A stretch of DNA of 53,560 nucleotides from Caldithrix sp. GTDB taxonomy: Bacteria; KSB1; UBA2214; DYKH01. A program made the position numbers and the translations under genes. Of the stretch, positions 16,577 to 50,185 are shown one piece after another. The notes under the pieces are model-generated. The model did not search any database. It had not been told where the DNA came from and was given only the letters and a program-made list of their open reading frames with translations. The stretch's first letter is position 1, and every line of letters begins with the position of its first letter. The stretch is from the NCBI GenBank assembly GCA_020722685.1, contig DYKH01000022.1, positions 1 to 53,560 on the forward strand, in the 5' to 3' direction.

Positions 16577-17329
16577 ATGCTTGATTTTTCCGGCAAAGTT
16601 GCCTTGATTACCGGCGGTTCACGCGGCATCGGCAGGGCGACGGCCATTTTGTTCGGCAAGCTGGGGGGAACCCCTGTTGTAAATTACCTCAGCAATGAGA
16701 CTGCAGCCAAACAAGTAGTAGCGGAAATAGAAGTGATAGGCGGCAAGGCCGTGTCTATCGCCGGTGATGTCTCCGATCTGCGACAAGTGAAACGAATGGT
16801 GGACATGCTTTTGAAGCAGCTTGGTCACATCGACATTCTAGTCAACAATGCCGGGGTTTGGCTGCCCTCGTCGATTAAGCAGTTTGATTTCGCCGCATAT
16901 GAGCAAACTTTGGCCATCAATTTGACAGGAAGTATCAATTGCTGTTCAGCGGTTGTGCCCGCCATGATCGAGCAAGGTGGGGGCCGCATCATCAATATTG
17001 CCTCTACCGCAGGACAGAGAGGCGAGGCGGGCTATTCCCCCTACGCAGCTTCCAAAGGAGCGATCATTAGCTTTACCAAGTCACTGGCGGCTGAGTTGGC
17101 TGCGGACAACATTCTGGTCAACTGCGTAGCTCCCGGTTGGGTAGACACCGATATGAGCGCAGAAGCCATCCGGCTGGAGAGCGAAAAAATTTTCTCCGCC
17201 ATTCCCTTACGCCGGCCTGCAACCGCCGAAGAGATCGCTTGGCCGATCCTATTTTTGGCATCGGAAGGCGCCAGCTACATCACCGGCGAAATTCTTAATG
17301 TGAATGGTGGATCGGTCCTCTGTGGATAA
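16577..17329 (+). CDS. SDR-family oxidoreductase (FabG-like)
   Basis: Classical short-chain dehydrogenase/reductase, 250 aa, cytoplasmic and probably NADP(H)-dependent. The cofactor motif TGGSRGIGRA is near the N-terminus, then LVNNAG, the catalytic Ser in NIASTAGQRGEAGYSPYAASKGA with the Tyr-x-x-x-Lys pair (YAASK), and the C-terminal FLASEGASYITGEILNVNGG. It resembles 3-oxoacyl-ACP reductase but no fatty-acid genes adjoin it, so the substrate is open. ATG 16577 (MLDFSGKVALITGG) fits the family; a frame start at 16517 lies inside the terminator. It is followed almost immediately by the AIR-synthase-like gene. Confidence 0.88.
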   Translation: MLDFSGKVALITGGSRGIGRATAILFGKLGGTPVVNYLSNETAAKQVVAEIEVIGGKAVSIAGDVSDLRQVKRMVDMLLKQLGHIDILVNNAGVWLPSSIKQFDFAAYEQTLAINLTGSINCCSAVVPAMIEQGGGRIINIASTAGQRGEAGYSPYAASKGAIISFTKSLAAELAADNILVNCVAPGWVDTDMSAEAIRLESEKIFSAIPLRRPATAEEIAWPILFLASEGASYITGEILNVNGGSVLCG

Positions 17330-17345
17330 CCAGGAGATTGGAGGA

Positions 17346-18368
17346 GTGACAAGCGATATCGAGAAATTGCGTACCGGCAAGCTAGCGCACCACTTTCTTG
17401 CTCGTCTGCTGGCAACACATGCCACAGCCGATGAGCGAATCATCGTCGGCCCCGCAATCGGCGAGGACGCAACCGTCATTGACATGGGGGATCGCTACCT
17501 CATCGCCAAGACCGATCCTATCACGTTCGTTGCGGAGCAAATCGGCTATTATGCCGTGCAGGTGAACACGAATGACATCGTCTGCATGGGCGGGCAACCC
17601 AAATGGTTTTTGGCCACCTTGCTATTGCCGGAAAAGGGAACGACCGCTGAGCTGGTAGAAGCAATTTTTGCCCAAATTGCCGATGTTTGCCGGCAGGAAA
17701 AGATTGCCTTTTGCGGCGGACATACTGAGGTGACCGTCGGCATCGATCGCCCCATTGCGGTAGGGCAGATGCTGGGTGAAGTGGCGAAGGACAAATTGAT
17801 CACCAAAAAGGGGGCGAGAGAAAACGATGTGATTATTTTGGTGAAAGAAATCCCTATTGAAGGCACCACGATCATTGCGCGGGAAAAGGCTGTGGAGTTA
17901 AAGGAGCTTTACTCGGAAGCTTTCGTGCGTCAGTGTCAGAATCTGCTCTTTAGTCCGGGCATCGGCGTGCGCCGCGAAGCGGAAATCGCCTTGGCGGCCG
18001 GCGAGGTTCACGCCATGCACGATCCAACCGAGGGTGGTTTGGCTACCGCCCTGCACGAGTTGGCCACGGCAGCCGGTTTGGGCGTTCGCATCGATTATTC
18101 CCGCATTCCCTTCTTACCGGAAGGGAAACTGCTTTGCGATCAGTATGAGTTGAACCCTCTCGGCTGCATCTCCTCGGGTTCGCTGCTCCTCGTTGTTTCA
18201 CCCAAAGTAGTGCAACCCATTCTGACGGCTTTTGCCGCTCACAGAATCGTCGCCGCGGAAATCGGCCTTATGACCGCGCTGGACTGCGGCAAAACCATGC
18301 TTGTGGAGGGGAAGGAAGTGGAGTTGCCCATTTTTCCGCAGGATGAGATTGGGAAGATATTTGCATAG
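17346..18368 (+). CDS. AIR synthase-related (HypE/PurM-fold) protein
   Basis: Member of the AIR synthase-related ATP-binding superfamily, 340 aa from GTG 17346. The N-terminal domain carries AIGEDATVI, the TDPITF strand and VNTNDIVCMGGQP. The C-terminal domain carries HDPTEGGLATALHELA, typical of HypE/SelD relatives. It ends EIGKIFA and lacks the C-terminal Pro-Arg-Ile-Cys tail needed for HypE function, so it is probably not a hydrogenase maturation protein. GTG 17346 has AGGAG at 17332-17336 upstream; the alternative ATG 17304 would overlap the SDR gene by 26 bases. The last 111 bases are repeated about 970 bp downstream, after the toxin-antitoxin pair. Confidence 0.8.
   Translation: MTSDIEKLRTGKLAHHFLARLLATHATADERIIVGPAIGEDATVIDMGDRYLIAKTDPITFVAEQIGYYAVQVNTNDIVCMGGQPKWFLATLLLPEKGTTAELVEAIFAQIADVCRQEKIAFCGGHTEVTVGIDRPIAVGQMLGEVAKDKLITKKGARENDVIILVKEIPIEGTTIIAREKAVELKELYSEAFVRQCQNLLFSPGIGVRREAEIALAAGEVHAMHDPTEGGLATALHELATAAGLGVRIDYSRIPFLPEGKLLCDQYELNPLGCISSGSLLLVVSPKVVQPILTAFAAHRIVAAEIGLMTALDCGKTMLVEGKEVELPIFPQDEIGKIFA
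18258..18368 (+). repeat. Direct repeat, copy 1 (true 3' end of the AIR-synthase-like gene)
   Basis: These 111 bases match 19224-19334 with no indels and 9 mismatches (92%). Homology begins abruptly inside the gene and stops within about 6 bases of its TAG. Confidence 0.9.
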
Positions 18369-18403
18369 AAATCGGATCTGTTCGAATTGCTCACTTGGTT
18401 CTT

Positions 18404-18436
18404 AACTCTGACAGGGTTCCAAACCCTGTCAGAGTT
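18404..18436. repeat. Perfect 15-bp palindrome
   Basis: AACTCTGACAGGGTT (18404-18418), a three-base CCA loop, and AACCCTGTCAGAGTT (18422-18436). The stem is perfect. There is no T tract beyond TT, so it is more likely a mobile or structural intergenic palindrome than a classical terminator. The GGTTCCAAAACC-type core recurs at 32864-32893. Confidence 0.85.
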
Positions 18437-18489
18437 ATTCGCCCAAAGATTGGGGGCGAGAATTTTCGCTTAAAGTGCAGAGAGCAGAG

Positions 18490-18921
18490 TTACCTTGAAG
18501 GATCAGCCAGTTCCTTCATGAATTGATCCGCCGTAATGATGGAGATGTTTCGAAACGGATTAAGGACGAGCAGGTCTTGATCGCCCGTAACGATATAATC
18601 CACTCGTACTGTCACCGCGCTTTCCAGAAACTTGTTGTCCTTCGGATCTCGACAAGCCTCGATCTTTTCGGAAGGCTTTTCAAGACGAGAATGAAAACTT
18701 AACAACTGCCGGAATTGCTCGATATCATCTTGCGATAAGTACTTTTCGAATCTGGGAAGTTGTAGGACAGCAATAAGCTCGGCGAGTGTTTCTTCAGAAA
18801 AAAGCAATTCGAACTTGTCCTCTTTAAGCCGTTCCAAGAGGACTCGCAGTTTTTTGCCGAGCAGAGCGCTTACCAATACATTCGTGTCAACGACGACCAG
18901 AAGCGGTCTCTTCCCGGGCAC
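18490..18921 (-). CDS. PIN-domain toxin (VapC-like, COG1569 type)
   Basis: Putative ribonuclease toxin of 143 aa. The PIN fold acidic residues are visible: VVVDTNVLVSALLG (first Asp), EETLAEL (Glu), RDPKDNKFLESA (Asp) and YIVTGDQDLL (Asp). The HxRDxxDNxxLxxA pattern marks the 'putative toxin-antitoxin system toxin component, PIN family' group. It is downstream of, and overlaps by 35 bases, the small acidic gene that is its likely antitoxin. The pair lies between two copies of the AIR-synthase gene end. Confidence 0.85.
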   Translation of the reverse strand: MPGKRPLLVVVDTNVLVSALLGKKLRVLLERLKEDKFELLFSEETLAELIAVLQLPRFEKYLSQDDIEQFRQLLSFHSRLEKPSEKIEACRDPKDNKFLESAVTVRVDYIVTGDQDLLVLNPFRNISIITADQFMKELADPSR

Positions 18922-19117
18922 GTTCTACCTCCTCTTCAATCTCACTTTCACTAATGGGGTAGATGGCTTTCCTCTTATCTATTTTCGCAAATAGCTCGTC
19001 CCATTGGGATGAAAGCACCTGGGGCTTCAGTCGCTCAAATACTTCCAGCTTACTTTGAGGATTCAATTGATCCACCAATTCATAGACTTTTTCCGCTTCA
19101 ATAGTCAATGTTGGCAT
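18887..19117 (-). CDS. Antitoxin of the PIN toxin
   Basis: Small protein of 76 aa, MPTLTIEAEKVYELVDQL at the start and a Glu-rich tail (SEIEEEVERAREE). It resembles the small antitoxins that precede COG1569 PIN toxins: an N-terminal structured part and a charged, probably disordered C-terminus that would wrap the toxin. ATG 19117 is chosen over an in-frame start 30 bases upstream because the fold begins at MPTLTIEA and GGAAGGA lies just ahead. Its 3' end overlaps the toxin gene, typical of coupled expression and autoregulation. Confidence 0.78.
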   Translation of the reverse strand: MPTLTIEAEKVYELVDQLNPQSKLEVFERLKPQVLSSQWDELFAKIDKRKAIYPISESEIEEEVERAREETASGRR

Positions 19118-19223
19118 AACAGTGTCCTTCCTAAAATACTCACTCAAATTGCAGGTTGATACTCGCAGGGGTTAAAATATCAAAATAATGTTAGACATCA
19201 AAGTTTATTTTTGACAATGTTCA

Positions 19224-19334
19224 GAGATCGGCCTTATGACTGCGCCGGAATGTGGCAAAACCATGCTTGTGGAGGGAAAGGAATCGGAGTTGCCCATCTT
19301 TCCGCAGGATGAGATTGGGAAGATATTTGCATAG
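19224..19334 (+). pseudogene. Duplicated 3' fragment of the AIR-synthase-like gene (copy 2)
   Basis: Encodes EIGLMTAPECGKTMLVEG and onward to the same GKIFA end and TAG stop as the intact gene. It differs at 9 of 111 bases and only at a few residues (LD to PE, V to S). No start codon or upstream coding sequence is attached. Because changes are mostly silent, the fragment was under selection in some intact homologue before arriving here; it looks like the 3' end of a related strain's allele rather than a fresh copy. Confidence 0.85.
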
Positions 19335-19375
19335 AGATAGAAGCCCCAGAGGCCTGTAGCCTCTGGGGCAGAAAA

Positions 19376-22126
19376 CTACGGCAGCAGTGTCATCTTCTGC
19401 GTCTTCACAAACTCACCCGACTGCATGCGGCAGAGGTAAATGCCCGCACCGACTTTTTCGCCAATCGGGTTTCTTCCATTCCACCGCACAAAATGATTGC
19501 CGGCGGGCATGTCGGCGTTAACCGATGTAGCGATTTTTTGGCCGAGAACGTTGTAGATTTCAACGCGCACTTTGCTCGCTTCAGGCAAGGCGAATCCAAT
19601 GTTCGTCTCCGGGTTAAATGGATTCGGATAGTTCTGACTCAAATCAAAAATCTTGGGCACGCTGGTTAAGGCTTGCCCCCTAGGGCCTTCCTTTTCAAAC
19701 TGACTCTGGGAACGGCCATCATACACATGGGTTAAGCTATAAACCAAATCCTCCCTCTTGTCGTCCAATCCACTCACAACCACGCGAGTGTAGACCTTTC
19801 GCTTGGCAAAGCAGGAGACTTCTGCCGCTTTGTTTACTATCCTCCTTCCCGACTCTGAAATAACTTCTTCCCGCCCTACTTGCAAAAGCTCACTGCGATC
19901 ATCGGCATCCATCATTTGCAGTGTGACCGTTAGCGGCGAGGATTCCGACGCCGCCAGCTTGCCGGAATTCAGACCGTAGGTACCCAACTCCACGACCAAG
20001 CTTTCGGCCTCACTGGGCACAAGACAAGGCTTGCTGTCAAGGTAGCTCCAGAACTCGTGACCGGTGCGGATGAGCAAAGTATCGTCTACTGCCGTGAATT
20101 TGAGCGGTATTGCAGCGCCGTCTTTGGTGCGAAAATAGATATCGCCCAGATCGACCGTCAACAACGCCTGAGTGCTGTTCGCTACCGTAACGCGCCGGTG
20201 ATACTTGTCAGCAAGAAGCTCATGCTTCTGCAAAGTTTCGCTGCTGAGGTTCAGGTTGTAGGGTGAGCTGCTGCCGCTGGTCCAGATGTACTTGGCCGCG
20301 GAAGGAGGATTGTCATTCCCGAAAGATATGGAGGTGTTTGGTGAAAAGCCCGGCGCTACTAACTGTCGGGCAGACCAGATACCGGTGCCATAGTTGTAGG
20401 TTGCCTTGTAAATGCTCGAATATTCGTCCCACAGCATGGCCAGATTGCCGGAAGCCAAGTTGGTAATGCTCGGTTGTTGAAACTCTTTCACGTAGGATTG
20501 CACCGCAGACCAGCTCCCATCAGTACCCGATTTACGTTGGTAATACACCCCCTCTGCCTCAAGAATCGGATCGACCCCCTGCCACACGATATAGGCATGC
20601 GGCTGAGGCTCATTGGCATCGGAGGTAACCTGAGAACAACTGGCCGTAGTGCCGGAGCTGCCGGGCACGGTTTCCGCCGTGCCCCAGGCAGTCGTATTAT
20701 TGCTCAAATTCGTATGGTATTTGTTGAGCAAGATCGTGCTGCCATTATCATAAGTAGCATAGATGTCGAGAAACGTCCAATCGAAAGAAGCGCCGGGAGA
20801 AAGGCTGGGATTTTTGTGAGTGGCACCTGTGGATGGCAATAGCGCGGCACTGGACCAGCTCGTCCCATCGTTCTCAGAATAGCGATGGGAAATGCCCGAA
20901 TTGGTCTTCCAGCAGCCCAGCAAACGAATTTTACGAATTCCCCCGGAAATGCGGACTTCCTTTCTGGTCAAGACGGGCTGAGGATTATTGGGACTGGAGC
21001 AAGTGATGCTGCCAAGGCTCACCGTCGTGCCCCATCCAGAGCCTAAATTGGCACGAAAGTAAATCGTATAGCTGCTGCCGCTGACATATTTTTGCCACAG
21101 CGTATATATTTTGCCATTTTCCCAAACAATTGACGGATACTTGTTATTGCCCAAGCCGTCACTGATCCTTAGCGGATCCTCCCAAGAAGTTCCGCCGACG
21201 TTCGTGCGCCGGTAGATGATTTCACCGCCGGATTCATAGAGGAGATGGTAGCGATTATTGCTATCCCGCACCAAACGCCGGCCGGTGTTGTAGGCAGTAG
21301 CCGTTTGGCTGAGGGATTGGCTGGGATAGCCGAATTGGGCGGTAAAAGAATAGCTGTAGTGCAGATCATCAATGTAAACATTTCGGCTTTGCGCGGTCAC
21401 TCCATCGCTCCACTGGGAAAAGCCGTAGACGATGCCGCCCACACCTTGCGGAGAGATGGCTTCAATGGTTTTGGTCAGCGTCCATCCCCAGTTAAGGGTG
21501 TTGGGGGTATTGTAGTTTGTGCCGTCCATCCCAATTTGGCCGCCGGAGAAGCTGTTGGTGGCGGTGGTCGGAACGAGCAAAGCCGTTCGGTTAGGTGTAG
21601 GATCACCAAAAATGTTCCATATCTGGAGTGTGTCTCCTTCAGAAATCACATGCCATGTGCCATATTGATCTTGATATTTAAGTTCGTCCTCTTGTACGAA
21701 GTATCTGATAGGTAAATCGTGGTAATTCGATTTCCAATCCCTGTCTCTGAAATCTATTTTGAAACCTATAGAAAAAATCTTGCAGTTGAATGTAAACGCG
21801 TACCAGGCCCATGCCATATCGGGCCACTCACTTTCCTTGCTGTCTGCAGCATCAAAGCCACACCTATCATTGCCGGCACAACTTGCGTAAATATTGCCGT
21901 ATAGAGAAGTGGGCAGAGCAATACCTTGGCCTACTATATAGTCCCAACGCGTTTTCCCAGATACGGCCACACCAGTAACTTCTATTGTATCACTCGGATT
22001 CTGAGGATACTCGTCAAATATAAGTTCGCCTATTTCCAAAATAGAATCTTGCGCAAATATAGATTGACTAGCAAAACACACCATAAAGATCGCTCCACAA
22101 ATTAGCACGACAAAACGTAGCAACAT
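19376..22126 (-). CDS. Secreted sialidase-like beta-propeller protein with T9SS tail
   Basis: Exported protein of 916 aa. The signal peptide is MLLRFVVLICGAIFMVCFASQSIFA. An N-terminal beta-sandwich (about 25-260) is followed by propeller repeats with RYSENDGTSW and similar BNR-like turns (about 275-620), another sandwich, and a T9SS type A tail (SQNYPNPFNPETNIGFA to QKMTLLP). No sialidase catalytic set was identified, so binding or display is as likely as enzymatic activity. ATG 22126 has GGAGA upstream and starts the signal peptide; an ATG at 22162 would add 12 residues overlapping the upstream gene. It lies 22 bases after the PQQ-repeat lipoprotein gene and is probably cotranscribed with it. 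AT content is higher than in the mannan locus. Confidence 0.75.
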   Translation of the reverse strand: MLLRFVVLICGAIFMVCFASQSIFAQDSILEIGELIFDEYPQNPSDTIEVTGVAVSGKTRWDYIVGQGIALPTSLYGNIYASCAGNDRCGFDAADSKESEWPDMAWAWYAFTFNCKIFSIGFKIDFRDRDWKSNYHDLPIRYFVQEDELKYQDQYGTWHVISEGDTLQIWNIFGDPTPNRTALLVPTTATNSFSGGQIGMDGTNYNTPNTLNWGWTLTKTIEAISPQGVGGIVYGFSQWSDGVTAQSRNVYIDDLHYSYSFTAQFGYPSQSLSQTATAYNTGRRLVRDSNNRYHLLYESGGEIIYRRTNVGGTSWEDPLRISDGLGNNKYPSIVWENGKIYTLWQKYVSGSSYTIYFRANLGSGWGTTVSLGSITCSSPNNPQPVLTRKEVRISGGIRKIRLLGCWKTNSGISHRYSENDGTSWSSAALLPSTGATHKNPSLSPGASFDWTFLDIYATYDNGSTILLNKYHTNLSNNTTAWGTAETVPGSSGTTASCSQVTSDANEPQPHAYIVWQGVDPILEAEGVYYQRKSGTDGSWSAVQSYVKEFQQPSITNLASGNLAMLWDEYSSIYKATYNYGTGIWSARQLVAPGFSPNTSISFGNDNPPSAAKYIWTSGSSSPYNLNLSSETLQKHELLADKYHRRVTVANSTQALLTVDLGDIYFRTKDGAAIPLKFTAVDDTLLIRTGHEFWSYLDSKPCLVPSEAESLVVELGTYGLNSGKLAASESSPLTVTLQMMDADDRSELLQVGREEVISESGRRIVNKAAEVSCFAKRKVYTRVVVSGLDDKREDLVYSLTHVYDGRSQSQFEKEGPRGQALTSVPKIFDLSQNYPNPFNPETNIGFALPEASKVRVEIYNVLGQKIATSVNADMPAGNHFVRWNGRNPIGEKVGAGIYLCRMQSGEFVKTQKMTLLP

Positions 22127-22148
22127 GGCGCATCTCCATTTCAATGGG

Positions 22149-23426
22149 TTAGTCGACCGCAAGTAATTTCACTGCTTTTGAGTGAGCCCCGCTCGCAGTA
22201 TAGAGCACGCCATTCTCTCCTATGGCGCCAATATCGGTGTAGTTCTCGTATAGCTGCTTTACAAAGCTCACATCACCATCATGACTATACCCTTGCAACA
22301 ATCCCGTCATAATACTCATAAAATAAATAATTCCTTCATAATCGCAAATAAGTGGACAATAAGAAGCTCCACCCGGGGTCGTCACCTTCCATCGGAGGTG
22401 ACCGCTATAATCCAGCGAATATAACGACCCAGATTGGAAATAAATGTGACCTTCGCGGTCTATAGTAATCCCCGATCTAATTCCATCTCTTTGGGCAGAG
22501 TACTGAAAACGCCATCGCTCTTTGCCGCTGGGGTAGAAAGAGAAAAGGTATGAACCGCTAGTGCTATCTGTCCCTGCACAATAAATGTTTCCCTGTGAAT
22601 CAACTGCAGGTGGGCCAATCTGCTTAATCCCCATTCTTTTTTGCCATAAGATCGAACCATTGGCCGCACTCACGGCATTCATGCTCTGATCCAAGCCTTG
22701 AAGATATAGCGTTTGCCCATCAGGCGATATGGAAATAACACCCATTAGCACGCTTGGCTCGGATTCAAATCCTGCCAGTCCAAAGGATTTCCATTTCGGT
22801 GATCCCCAAGGATCTATTGCATGCAGGAAGCCATCTGTAGTTGTTGTGTAAATAGTCCCATCAAGACCGATGTTGTTGCCGTATTGTACTGTCGCGCCGT
22901 TTAGTACGGTGGCCCACTTCACAGTTCCGTTGGGGTTCAACGCATAGAAGGTGCCTATGTCAGTGCCGCCCCACGTGCCTAAATAAACTGTGCTATCAAC
23001 ACCCACTATTGGAGATCCCGCAAACTTAGCAAAAAGGCCAACAGTAGGTCGGAAGGTCCACTTGATGTGGCCTTCCGAAGTCACAGCGTATAGTATGCCC
23101 GTTCTCGATGTGTCTTGTTCAACGCAAACATAAATAGTACCGTCTGGGCCAATAACTGGCGGTGCAAGAACTTTCTCGGCGACCGATGTTTGCCAGAGGA
23201 TTTCACCATTGCGTGGCCCTCTAAACGGAGTTCTTCCCACGGCTTGAGGAGTTCGGAGAGCCATCGGCCAGGGTGAATCCGCCAAGCTGGGCCAAGGTAT
23301 ATCAACCTGCGGCATGGTGGATGGAATAGCCGACGGCTTTTCCGGCTCCAAAGGTTTCTTCTCTCGCGTGCACGCGAATGACAGCAGAATCAAGATGAGT
23401 AGAGACAGGTAGGATTTGTTAAACAT
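22149..23426 (-). CDS. PQQ-like beta-propeller lipoprotein
   Basis: Putative surface or periplasmic lipoprotein of 425 aa. The signal ends in a lipobox (LLSFAC, Cys about residue 19). Then come about seven blades of the quinoprotein-like repeat: GPDGTIYVC, GVDSTVYLG, GLDGTIYTTT, SPDGQTLYL, DSQGNIYCAG, DREGHIYFQS and CDYEGIIYF. These repeats bind partners or form scaffolds (as in BamB); there is no evidence of PQQ dehydrogenase residues. ATG 23426 (MFNKSYLSLL) is chosen because it begins the lipoprotein signal. It is first in a two-gene unit with the T9SS-exported 916-aa protein. Confidence 0.8.
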   Translation of the reverse strand: MFNKSYLSLLILILLSFACTREKKPLEPEKPSAIPSTMPQVDIPWPSLADSPWPMALRTPQAVGRTPFRGPRNGEILWQTSVAEKVLAPPVIGPDGTIYVCVEQDTSRTGILYAVTSEGHIKWTFRPTVGLFAKFAGSPIVGVDSTVYLGTWGGTDIGTFYALNPNGTVKWATVLNGATVQYGNNIGLDGTIYTTTTDGFLHAIDPWGSPKWKSFGLAGFESEPSVLMGVISISPDGQTLYLQGLDQSMNAVSAANGSILWQKRMGIKQIGPPAVDSQGNIYCAGTDSTSGSYLFSFYPSGKERWRFQYSAQRDGIRSGITIDREGHIYFQSGSLYSLDYSGHLRWKVTTPGGASYCPLICDYEGIIYFMSIMTGLLQGYSHDGDVSFVKQLYENYTDIGAIGENGVLYTASGAHSKAVKLLAVD

Positions 23427-23806: not shown

Positions 23807-24034
23807 TTAAAGGAGTCCGAGGAATTCATCGACTGTAAGCCCGGTCTGATGAATGATGTTTGCCAGGGTTCCCGTGGGAGTATCTTTGCTATGGAGAGGG
23901 ACTGTCACTCGTCTTTCGGGATTTTCAACGTGAATCAGCCGGGCATGACTTCCAGTTTGATGATGTACATGAAAACCTGCCCTCTGAAGTGCCTTGACAA
24001 CTTGTTTAGGTTCAAGTGAAGGAAGTCTTGGCAT
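23807..24034 (-). CDS. hicA: HicA toxin
   Basis: mRNA interferase toxin of the HicA family, 75 aa. The dsRNA-binding-like fold is recognisable: LPSLEPKQVVKALQRAGF, then HHQTGSHARLIH containing the catalytic His in GSHARL, and VTVPLHSKDTPTGTLANIIHQTGL. Its ATG overlaps the hicB stop by one base (TGATG), so translation is coupled. The order hicB then hicA is the reverse of the commonest arrangement but is frequent. Confidence 0.93.
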   Translation of the reverse strand: MPRLPSLEPKQVVKALQRAGFHVHHQTGSHARLIHVENPERRVTVPLHSKDTPTGTLANIIHQTGLTVDEFLGLL

Positions 24035-33025: not shown

Positions 33026-33075
33026 GTAACCAATCAGGGGGTGTTGTACCGGCACTGTCATTCGGATGTTCAGGA
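33026..33075 (+). repeat. Partial copy (C) of the 125-bp inverted-repeat element
   Basis: Begins GTAACCAATCAGGGGGTGTT and continues with GGCACTGTCATTC, matching the left part of the complete copies at 41252 and 50061. The right end is missing: homology fades by about 33075, where the broken propeller gene begins. Confidence 0.65.
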
Positions 33076-41058: not shown

Positions 41059-41693
41059 AACTGCCCTAGAAATCGTGACCAGGTTGATTTTGTATTCTTT
41101 GTCTCAAGTCACTCTGCAAGTTCGAAATGCTGCTAAATTGACGAACAGAAACTAACTAAGGTACGTATAATTAGGCGGCGAAACCAATGGCCTGAGGAAA
41201 GGATCAAGTGCGAGTAGATTAGATCGCCCAATGGCTTAGATCATTTGATTGGTAACCAATCACGGTGTGTTCTGCCAATGCTGTCATTCCCGCGGGGGCA
41301 GGAATCTCCTTTCCATTACCCGGCAAAAGGAGACCCCGGCATACTCAGAGGTGACCGTGTCCTATGATTGGTTACGTTGATTGGCACACGGGATATGTCG
41401 GCAAGAGGAGTGCTTATTCTTTGCTCAAGTTTGCAGCAATGGTCATGATTATTGAGGACGGACATAAGGGACAGCGCCCTGTTGGGGGATTCTGATCGAG
41501 TCCGATCCCAATATTTTACGCAATTTGTTCGATTTGCTCTATATTAGTTCGATGAGGACTGGTGCGAAACGACACTCGTATGTGAGCTGCTTTACCGAGG
41601 CATGCCCTTTCAATTGGCGAAAAAGCATGCAACCCTTTTCATAAGGCGAAACCGGGCTGTTGCTGAAATGAGAGGGATGCAGAAGGAACGATC
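41059..41693. other. Long intergenic stretch with one inverted-repeat element
   Basis: 635 bases between the URO-D-like and adenosine deaminase genes. The only structured feature is the 124-bp element at 41252-41375. No supported gene on either strand. Confidence 0.5.
41252..41375. repeat. Miniature inverted-repeat element, copy A (124 bp)
   Basis: Ends GTAACCAATCACGG and, inverted, GTAACCAATCATAGG. The interior holds TCATTCCCGCGGGGGCAGGAATCTCC-like sequence with an ATTCC/GGAAT dyad. It matches copy B at 50061-50185 along its whole length and the left part matches copy C at 33026. No coding capacity. Confidence 0.8.
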
Positions 41694-50060: not shown

Positions 50061-50185
50061 GTAACCCATCACGGGGTTGTCCTGCCAGTGCCGTTATTCC
50101 TGCGGATGCAGGAATCTCCTTTCCATGACACGGCAGAAGGAGGCCGCTGCATACGCAGGGGTGACGGCATCCTGTGATCCGTTAC
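50061..50185. repeat. Miniature inverted-repeat element, copy B (125 bp)
   Basis: Begins GTAACCCATCACGGGG and ends, inverted, GTAACGGATCACAGGATG. The interior carries TTATTCCTGCGGATGCAGGA, an ATTCC/GGAAT dyad. It lies about 97 bases upstream of the AmgK-like start and could affect its transcription. Matches copy A end to end with many substitutions. Confidence 0.8.

Follow-up and report, generated by a model that had tools for sequence, protein, structure and literature searches.

A toxin-antitoxin (TA) pair in a 53,560-nucleotide stretch of DNA from Caldithrix sp. (contig DYKH01000022.1 of assembly GCA_020722685.1, positions 1 to 53,560 of the forward strand; hereafter the window) stands between two diverged copies of the 3' end of its neighbour, an AIR-synthase-like gene, and the same arrangement recurs at unrelated genes beside TA pairs of several families. 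Our preferred reading, to which we would assign a probability of roughly 0.6, is that related strains are the source of TA modules, which enter through a gene end by one-sided homologous recombination, that the resident end is left behind as an orphan, and that addiction protects the insertion. It is conceivable, at odds a little short of even, that many TA families spread integrase-free in this manner, with the end of a conserved neighbour gene as homology arm, the gene itself unharmed, and addiction punishing repeat-mediated deletion. The spread of chromosomal TA pairs without mobility genes is a long-standing question, and orphan gene ends beside such pairs would offer a readable record of entry, namely of which allele came in, how distant the donor was and which gene was used.

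The AIR-synthase-like gene (17304..18368, plus strand) belongs to the HypE/SelD/ThiL superfamily by its Pfam AIRS and AIRS_C matches, while every NCBIfam match of its protein falls under the cut-off; its homologues include several entries from candidate division KSB1 and Calditrichaeota, and the homologue record points to a start at 17346, with a protein (P0001) of 340 amino acids. A repeat search of the window finds a direct repeat of 115 nt (18258-18372 and 19224-19338, 91% identity). Its coding part comprises copy 1, the 3' end of the intact gene (18258..18368, plus strand), and copy 2, which repeat search and alignment place as an orphan AIR 3' end at 19224..19334 on the same strand. The two are ungapped over 111 bp and identical at 102 of the 111 positions, in agreement with the original prediction of a 111-base gene end that recurs at 92% identity after the TA pair; homology was also said to end at the stop codon, and it does end near it, running 4 nt further. 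The codons of the copies show 5 silent differences and 3 that change an amino acid (4 nt), and with a BLASTN E value of 1.6e-40 the resemblance is not due to chance. Leftward of 18258 and 19224 there is no homology between the copies; the onset is abrupt, inside the gene, and marked by a 14-bp stretch identical in both. The copies are spaced 966 bp apart and hold the TA pair and no other genes between them, and the stretch from the AIR stop to copy 2 is A+T-rich, its 43.9% G+C lying at about the 2nd percentile of the window.

The pair itself would, from its matches, be an ordinary type II TA pair of the PIN/VapC family (TIGR00305, PF13470), a PIN toxin with a small antitoxin, and only its setting is unusual. 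The toxin gene (18490..18921, minus strand) scores 96.3 bits against TIGR00305 (cut-off 29.15) and 77.2 bits against PF13470 (PIN_3; cut-off 27; 2.2e-21), and its product contains DTN, EET, RDPKDN and TGDQDL, which we take to be the acidic PIN motifs. The putative antitoxin gene (18887..19117, minus strand), whose frame starts MPTLTIEAEK and overlaps the toxin start, is weakly VapB15-like (26 bits against model NF047401, cut-off 80) and has no Pfam match.

The anatomy is not confined to this locus. Sixty PIN loci were taken from the phylum of genome G003, and several were found to be bracketed by direct repeats; across the material, repeats bracketing TA genes are 40-647 bp long and 73-100% identical. 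Two cases involve sdhB. G040 has a complete sdhB, next to it a PIN pair, and beyond that pair an orphan sdhB end; in G070, where a search for intact sdhB gave no match, two sdhB 3' fragments lie on either side of a PIN pair. These are the only 2 of 19 genomes having an sdhB match in which a second end occurs, and in both a PIN gene lies between the ends. Comparable cases involve an FMN-reductase gene with HicAB (L355), a peptidase-like gene with HicA and 635 bp repeated (L357), a Gate-domain gene with a HicA pair and a repeat of 102 bp (L484) and, from outside that phylum, an NTP-transferase gene with HicA (L389) and an Mg-chelatase-like gene with a HicA pair (L393). In these five the homology ends at +4, +12, +1, -4 and -7 from the stop, respectively, and it is likewise close to the stop in L396 (-15) and L456 (+2), with L360 (+103), G070 (about +57) and L024 (about +47) as exceptions. 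A mirror case at a 5' end is provided by L188, where the first 126 bp of a response regulator gene are repeated upstream of a PIN pair. The orphan gene end pattern involves several TA families at unrelated genes, and because of this a single dedicated element is unlikely; of the small element at a gene end that had been proposed for the window, the entry at a gene end is in line with these cases and the dedicated element is not.

Four further observations were made at these loci. In L143 (G070:C478, positions 3-722), unrelated sequence precedes the first sdhB fragment, as if there had been two successive insertions at one gene end. In G071:C15 (L200), a 248-aa open reading frame (ORF; 1846-2592, reverse) occupies the gap between sdhB and Pyr_redox_3, where G070 holds its TA pair. 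The orphan of L393 (1219-1459) includes two additional stretches, 24 nt and 20 nt long, which by eye look like small dispersed repeats. Finally, a 227-bp repeat of 95% identity in L246 (858-1084 and 1994-2220) lies outside large ORFs and brackets a PIN gene, possibly reflecting a similar and recent event that did not involve a gene end.

TA loci are bracketed far more often than the controls. The survey counted repeats of at least 40 bp and at least 70% identity, each copy at most 1 kb from the gene, and required flanks of at least 600 bp, with loci of shorter flanks excluded before counting (a reduction from 210 to 186 TA loci and from 120 to 105 controls); loci were taken best match first, and the genomes of L111 and L128 seem to be close relatives, so that these two loci do not count as independent. 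Direct repeats bracket 32 of the 186 TA loci and 1 of the 105 controls (GNAT 0/89, AIR 1/16; Fisher 2.9e-6). By family, the counts in the phylum of G003 are 6/28 for PIN_3, 2/23 for PIN, 2/26 for ParE, and 4/25 and 10/39 for HicA, with 6/25 and 2/20 in 50 other genomes. Under an automatic rule, the repeat touches a gene terminus in 13 of 186 TA loci and in 0 of 105 controls (Fisher 0.0025), the 13 being L102 (the same as L140), L355, L357, L389, L393, L396, L456 and L484 together with the doubtful L111, L127, L360, L467 and L503. A first-pass PIN survey had found 16 of 125 PIN genes bracketed besides that of the window, a count that retains L145, L150, L151, L183 and L272, which look dispersed or tandem. 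For background, bracketing was scored at arbitrary positions of 400 bp across 80 AIR loci, with 23 of 3593 bracketed, and at positions in TA loci lying over 2.5 kb away from the PIN gene, with 0 of 18. Those 80 AIR loci, 1.16 Mb chosen regardless of TA genes, contain 4 direct-repeat pairs spaced 0.5-3 kb apart: one brackets a DUF433/DUF5615 pair beside the 3' end of a CoxE-type gene (L024), one a nucleotidyltransferase gene with a DUF433 gene (L032), one the AIR gene itself, and one neither a TA nor an AIR gene.

As a class, the copies differ in the manner of alleles. Codons were compared in 13 coding cases (the window, G070, G040, L355, L357, L484, L389, L393, L396, L024, L456, L188 and L140), with gapped codons skipped and with L360, whose frame is broken, and the doubtful L111, L127, L467 and L503 left out. 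Pooled over 580 codons, 96.8 silent changes stand against 57.2 replacement changes (dS 0.293, dN 0.044, omega 0.15), and the aligned orphan codons contain no in-frame stop, where about 3 would be expected. The strongest competing explanation, in-situ long target duplication, holds that about 100 bp of the target were copied on entry and that the copies then drifted, the orphan being free of constraint. Simulations of a neutral orphan beside a constrained gene, in six settings of 300 runs each, reached the observed silent count in 0 of 300 runs per setting, and L357, with 39 silent and 18 replacement changes over 210 codons, is likewise at odds with such drift. The pooled silent excess therefore indicates that most of the divergence arose while both copies were working gene ends, in different cells. 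On these codon counts, the pooled class is taken to reject in-situ duplication followed by neutral decay, and we consider that explanation unlikely overall.

The flanking sequence bears on which copy came from outside. The outer sdhB orphan of G070 is directly adjacent to a Pyr_redox_3 gene. Of 6 loci tested, 2 have a homologue of this gene on the downstream side of sdhB, namely those of G071 (77%, past the 248-aa ORF) and G010 (59%); both genomes are of other species than G070, and both have a single sdhB end before Pyr_redox_3. The far orphan of G070 therefore appears to lie on the resident flank. Directly after copy 2 of the window, between the AIR remnant and a convergent gene of 928 aa, there is a strong hairpin (19343..19369; -25.5 kcal/mol, z -4.42, with 0 of 200 shuffles equally stable) whose T-rich tail lies on the minus strand; it is probably native to the resident and may also have served the AIR gene. 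The original prediction had regarded copy 2 as the foreign end, and both flanks lean towards the reverse: copy 2 is probably the resident's old AIR gene end, and copy 1 probably the incoming allele, at least in part. A hairpin family common to orphan ends was considered and rejected, with 0 exact matches in 451 loci. Aligning the 3' ends with the closest orthologue, as had been suggested, adds little: P0002, known as a protein from an 11388-bp contig and 89% identical to the AIR protein, shares P and E with copy 2 and V with copy 1; it differs from copy 2 twice and from copy 1 three times, too few differences to decide polarity. More distant AIR matches occur in all 82 genomes of the phylum of G003, the best at 64% identity, and none above that value was found among the genome contigs (best 80 of 576), the viral contigs or the 82 genomes.

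Recombination through a gene end would proceed as follows. Donor DNA from a related strain would carry the neighbouring gene's end together with the TA module, and one side of it would cross over by homology inside the resident gene, which would stay whole with a tail at least in part of donor origin. At its opposite end, the donor DNA would be joined to the resident gene without homology, in the window 111 bp before the stop; the resident's old tail would be left as an orphan beside native downstream sequence, and no host DNA would be lost. Alternatively, a small circle bearing the gene end and the TA module could enter by a single homologous crossover and yield the same product. Homology would be expected to end near the stop because donor sequence beyond the gene would differ. 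The leftover direct repeat would make the insertion deletable by recombination, and direct repeats of such size should indeed recombine and expel the insert. TA addiction may then kill or stall the cells that lose the insertion, leaving TA insertions to persist and other cargo to be lost, and a filter of this kind would explain why repeats are found at TA loci (and reportedly at restriction-modification genes) and not at the sampled acetyltransferase genes. Excerpts of a study of plasmids describe TA pairs as lowering deletion between repeats (PMC6354349).

A number of observations weigh against this account, and several of them suit in-situ duplication. In the window, 5 silent against 4 replacement changes give, by themselves, p values of 0.13-0.27, so that the suggestion of two strains' alleles is carried by the pooled class and not by this locus, whose own substitutions do not reject in-situ duplication. 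G040 has 0 silent and 2 replacement changes with a 12-bp deletion, and a silent excess is missing as well from L456 (0 silent, 4 replacement), L024 (1.8, 4.2), L140 (6, 10) and L396 (1, 1). Near-identical donors or old orphans would be expected to produce such cases; in-situ duplication fits them too, with G040, L456, L024 and L140 looking like unconstrained orphans. The spread of repeat identities from 73 to 100%, as for events of many ages, is in keeping with a duplication process, as is the finding that 6 of 8 repeats checked occur nowhere else in the loci compared, and excerpts of two reports describe that process for restriction-modification genes (PMC1643837, PMC3874152). For recombination through a gene end, moreover, no empty-site relative of the window was found in the searches above and the donor is unseen, while the L357 copies, set against 6 relatives, leave polarity undecided, 2 of them leaning to the orphan. 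Many of the bracketing repeats are non-coding and those of L111, L128 and L106 look dispersed, and the bracketed class is therefore mixed; about 5 of the 13 gene-terminus loci are doubtful, and the GNAT controls may lie in calmer regions than TA genes, which occupy more variable ones.

Restriction-modification genes offer the closest precedent for the window anatomy; Nobusato et al. reportedly described in 2000 their insertion with a long target duplication. According to excerpts of later reports, such genes insert with long, variable target duplications of the order of 100 bp (PMC3874152, PMC1643837, PMC4978471). There as here, addiction-type genes are tightly bracketed by a direct repeat of about 100 bp (111 bp at 92% in the window) and, as far as those excerpts describe it, no known mobile element is involved. 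Unlike that type, the window cargo is a PIN toxin with its antitoxin and no restriction-modification complex, and the repeat is often a terminal piece of a gene in which homology gives out close to the stop codon; moreover, the copies here differ like alleles, and the repeat therefore need not have arisen at insertion. Mobile genes of fungal mitochondria, of the Allomyces atp6 type, also bring a foreign gene 3' end and yield a hybrid gene plus a displaced native end, and differ in that their cargo is a homing endonuclease and their setting a eukaryotic organelle. In the portions of the literature on long target duplication or gene-end duplication that were consulted no TA-pair case came up, and we claim nothing wider.

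Prophage e14 in icd is instructive in another way. Alleles with and without e14 are reported to differ by 12 single-nucleotide polymorphisms, 10 of them silent, and the displaced end is known as icdC (PMC4759930). In both systems incoming DNA would bring a mostly silently different gene end and leave the resident end behind, and the window has the same gene-attached 3' end and displaced 3' fragment, the element-borne one presumably being copy 1. It is accordingly worth asking whether a site-specific integrase element once restored the gene end in the window and survives there as a remnant, its integrase lost or acting in trans; the shared anatomy, the mostly silent differences reported for icd (PMC4759930) and the identical 14-bp stretch at the left homology edge would suit this. 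Yet the 9 proteins scanned between 12712 and 24034 include no integrase, as the original prediction had noted, nor are there phage genes in the insert; the copies lie close together, and the class spans differing TA families, unrelated and numerous target genes, both 3' and 5' ends, and repeats of widely varying length. Nor is the attachment site reused. In a comparison of related loci that had been proposed as a check, 0 of 98 other AIR loci having a stop contain a credible second AIR 3' end, with or without toxin genes, weak matches in some being judged not credible, 13 of the loci having less than 1 kb past the stop, and L081-L100 repeating some genomes of L001-L080, so that the 98 are not wholly independent. 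On that count the AIR 3' end was rejected as a site of common integration, and an integrase remnant seems to us decidedly improbable. Least probable is a strain-mixture artefact, in which metagenome assembly fused the versions of the gene end from two strains into one contig: although most other cases come from metagenome-assembled genomes or genomes without stated origin, a single P0001 sequence occurs on 2 contigs, the cluster of toxins at 90% identity comprises 2 sequences, again on 2 contigs (the second contig possibly not shared), the orphan's left junction has no clear sequence in common with the gene and therefore no overlap could join them, and the pattern is overrepresented around TA genes.

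About 1 in 6 of the surveyed TA loci (32/186) are repeat-bracketed, and if recombination through a gene end is the correct reading, each orphan end would be the fossil of one entry. TA pairs would be joined with restriction-modification genes, which are likewise addiction modules and insert in a similar way, and the idea of addiction as protection would become directly testable through repeat deletion.

The remaining features of the region are minor. A perfect palindrome had been reported at the left edge of the insertion; it is real, with 16-bp arms (18403-18418 and 18422-18437, within 18403..18437), and belongs to a dispersed intergenic family found in 8 of the 82 genomes searched, with 32 copies in one of them, so that it was rejected as an insertion mark and is unrelated to the insertion. 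None was found in the 100 loci searched. The CTGACAGGGTT-type palindrome has its 32 copies in G061 and at most 3 in each other of the 82 genomes. Ahead of the antitoxin gene and against copy 2, a promoter-like site (19188..19217, minus strand) rests on a consensus match, and such sites number 3 in the region against 1.9 expected from shuffles. The convergent gene on the right flank (19376..22162, minus strand) encodes a protein of 928 aa with FlgD_ig and Por_Secre_tail matches in Pfam; its homologue P0241, on a 19358-bp contig, matches 99% of the query at 100% identity. Further on, at 23807-24034 on the minus strand, lies a HicA toxin gene (PF07927), with no bracketing direct repeat among those listed. 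Elsewhere in the window, a dispersed repeat of about 108 nt at 41268-41375 and 50078-50185 is 81% alike between its copies, and 33026-33063 shares its left part.

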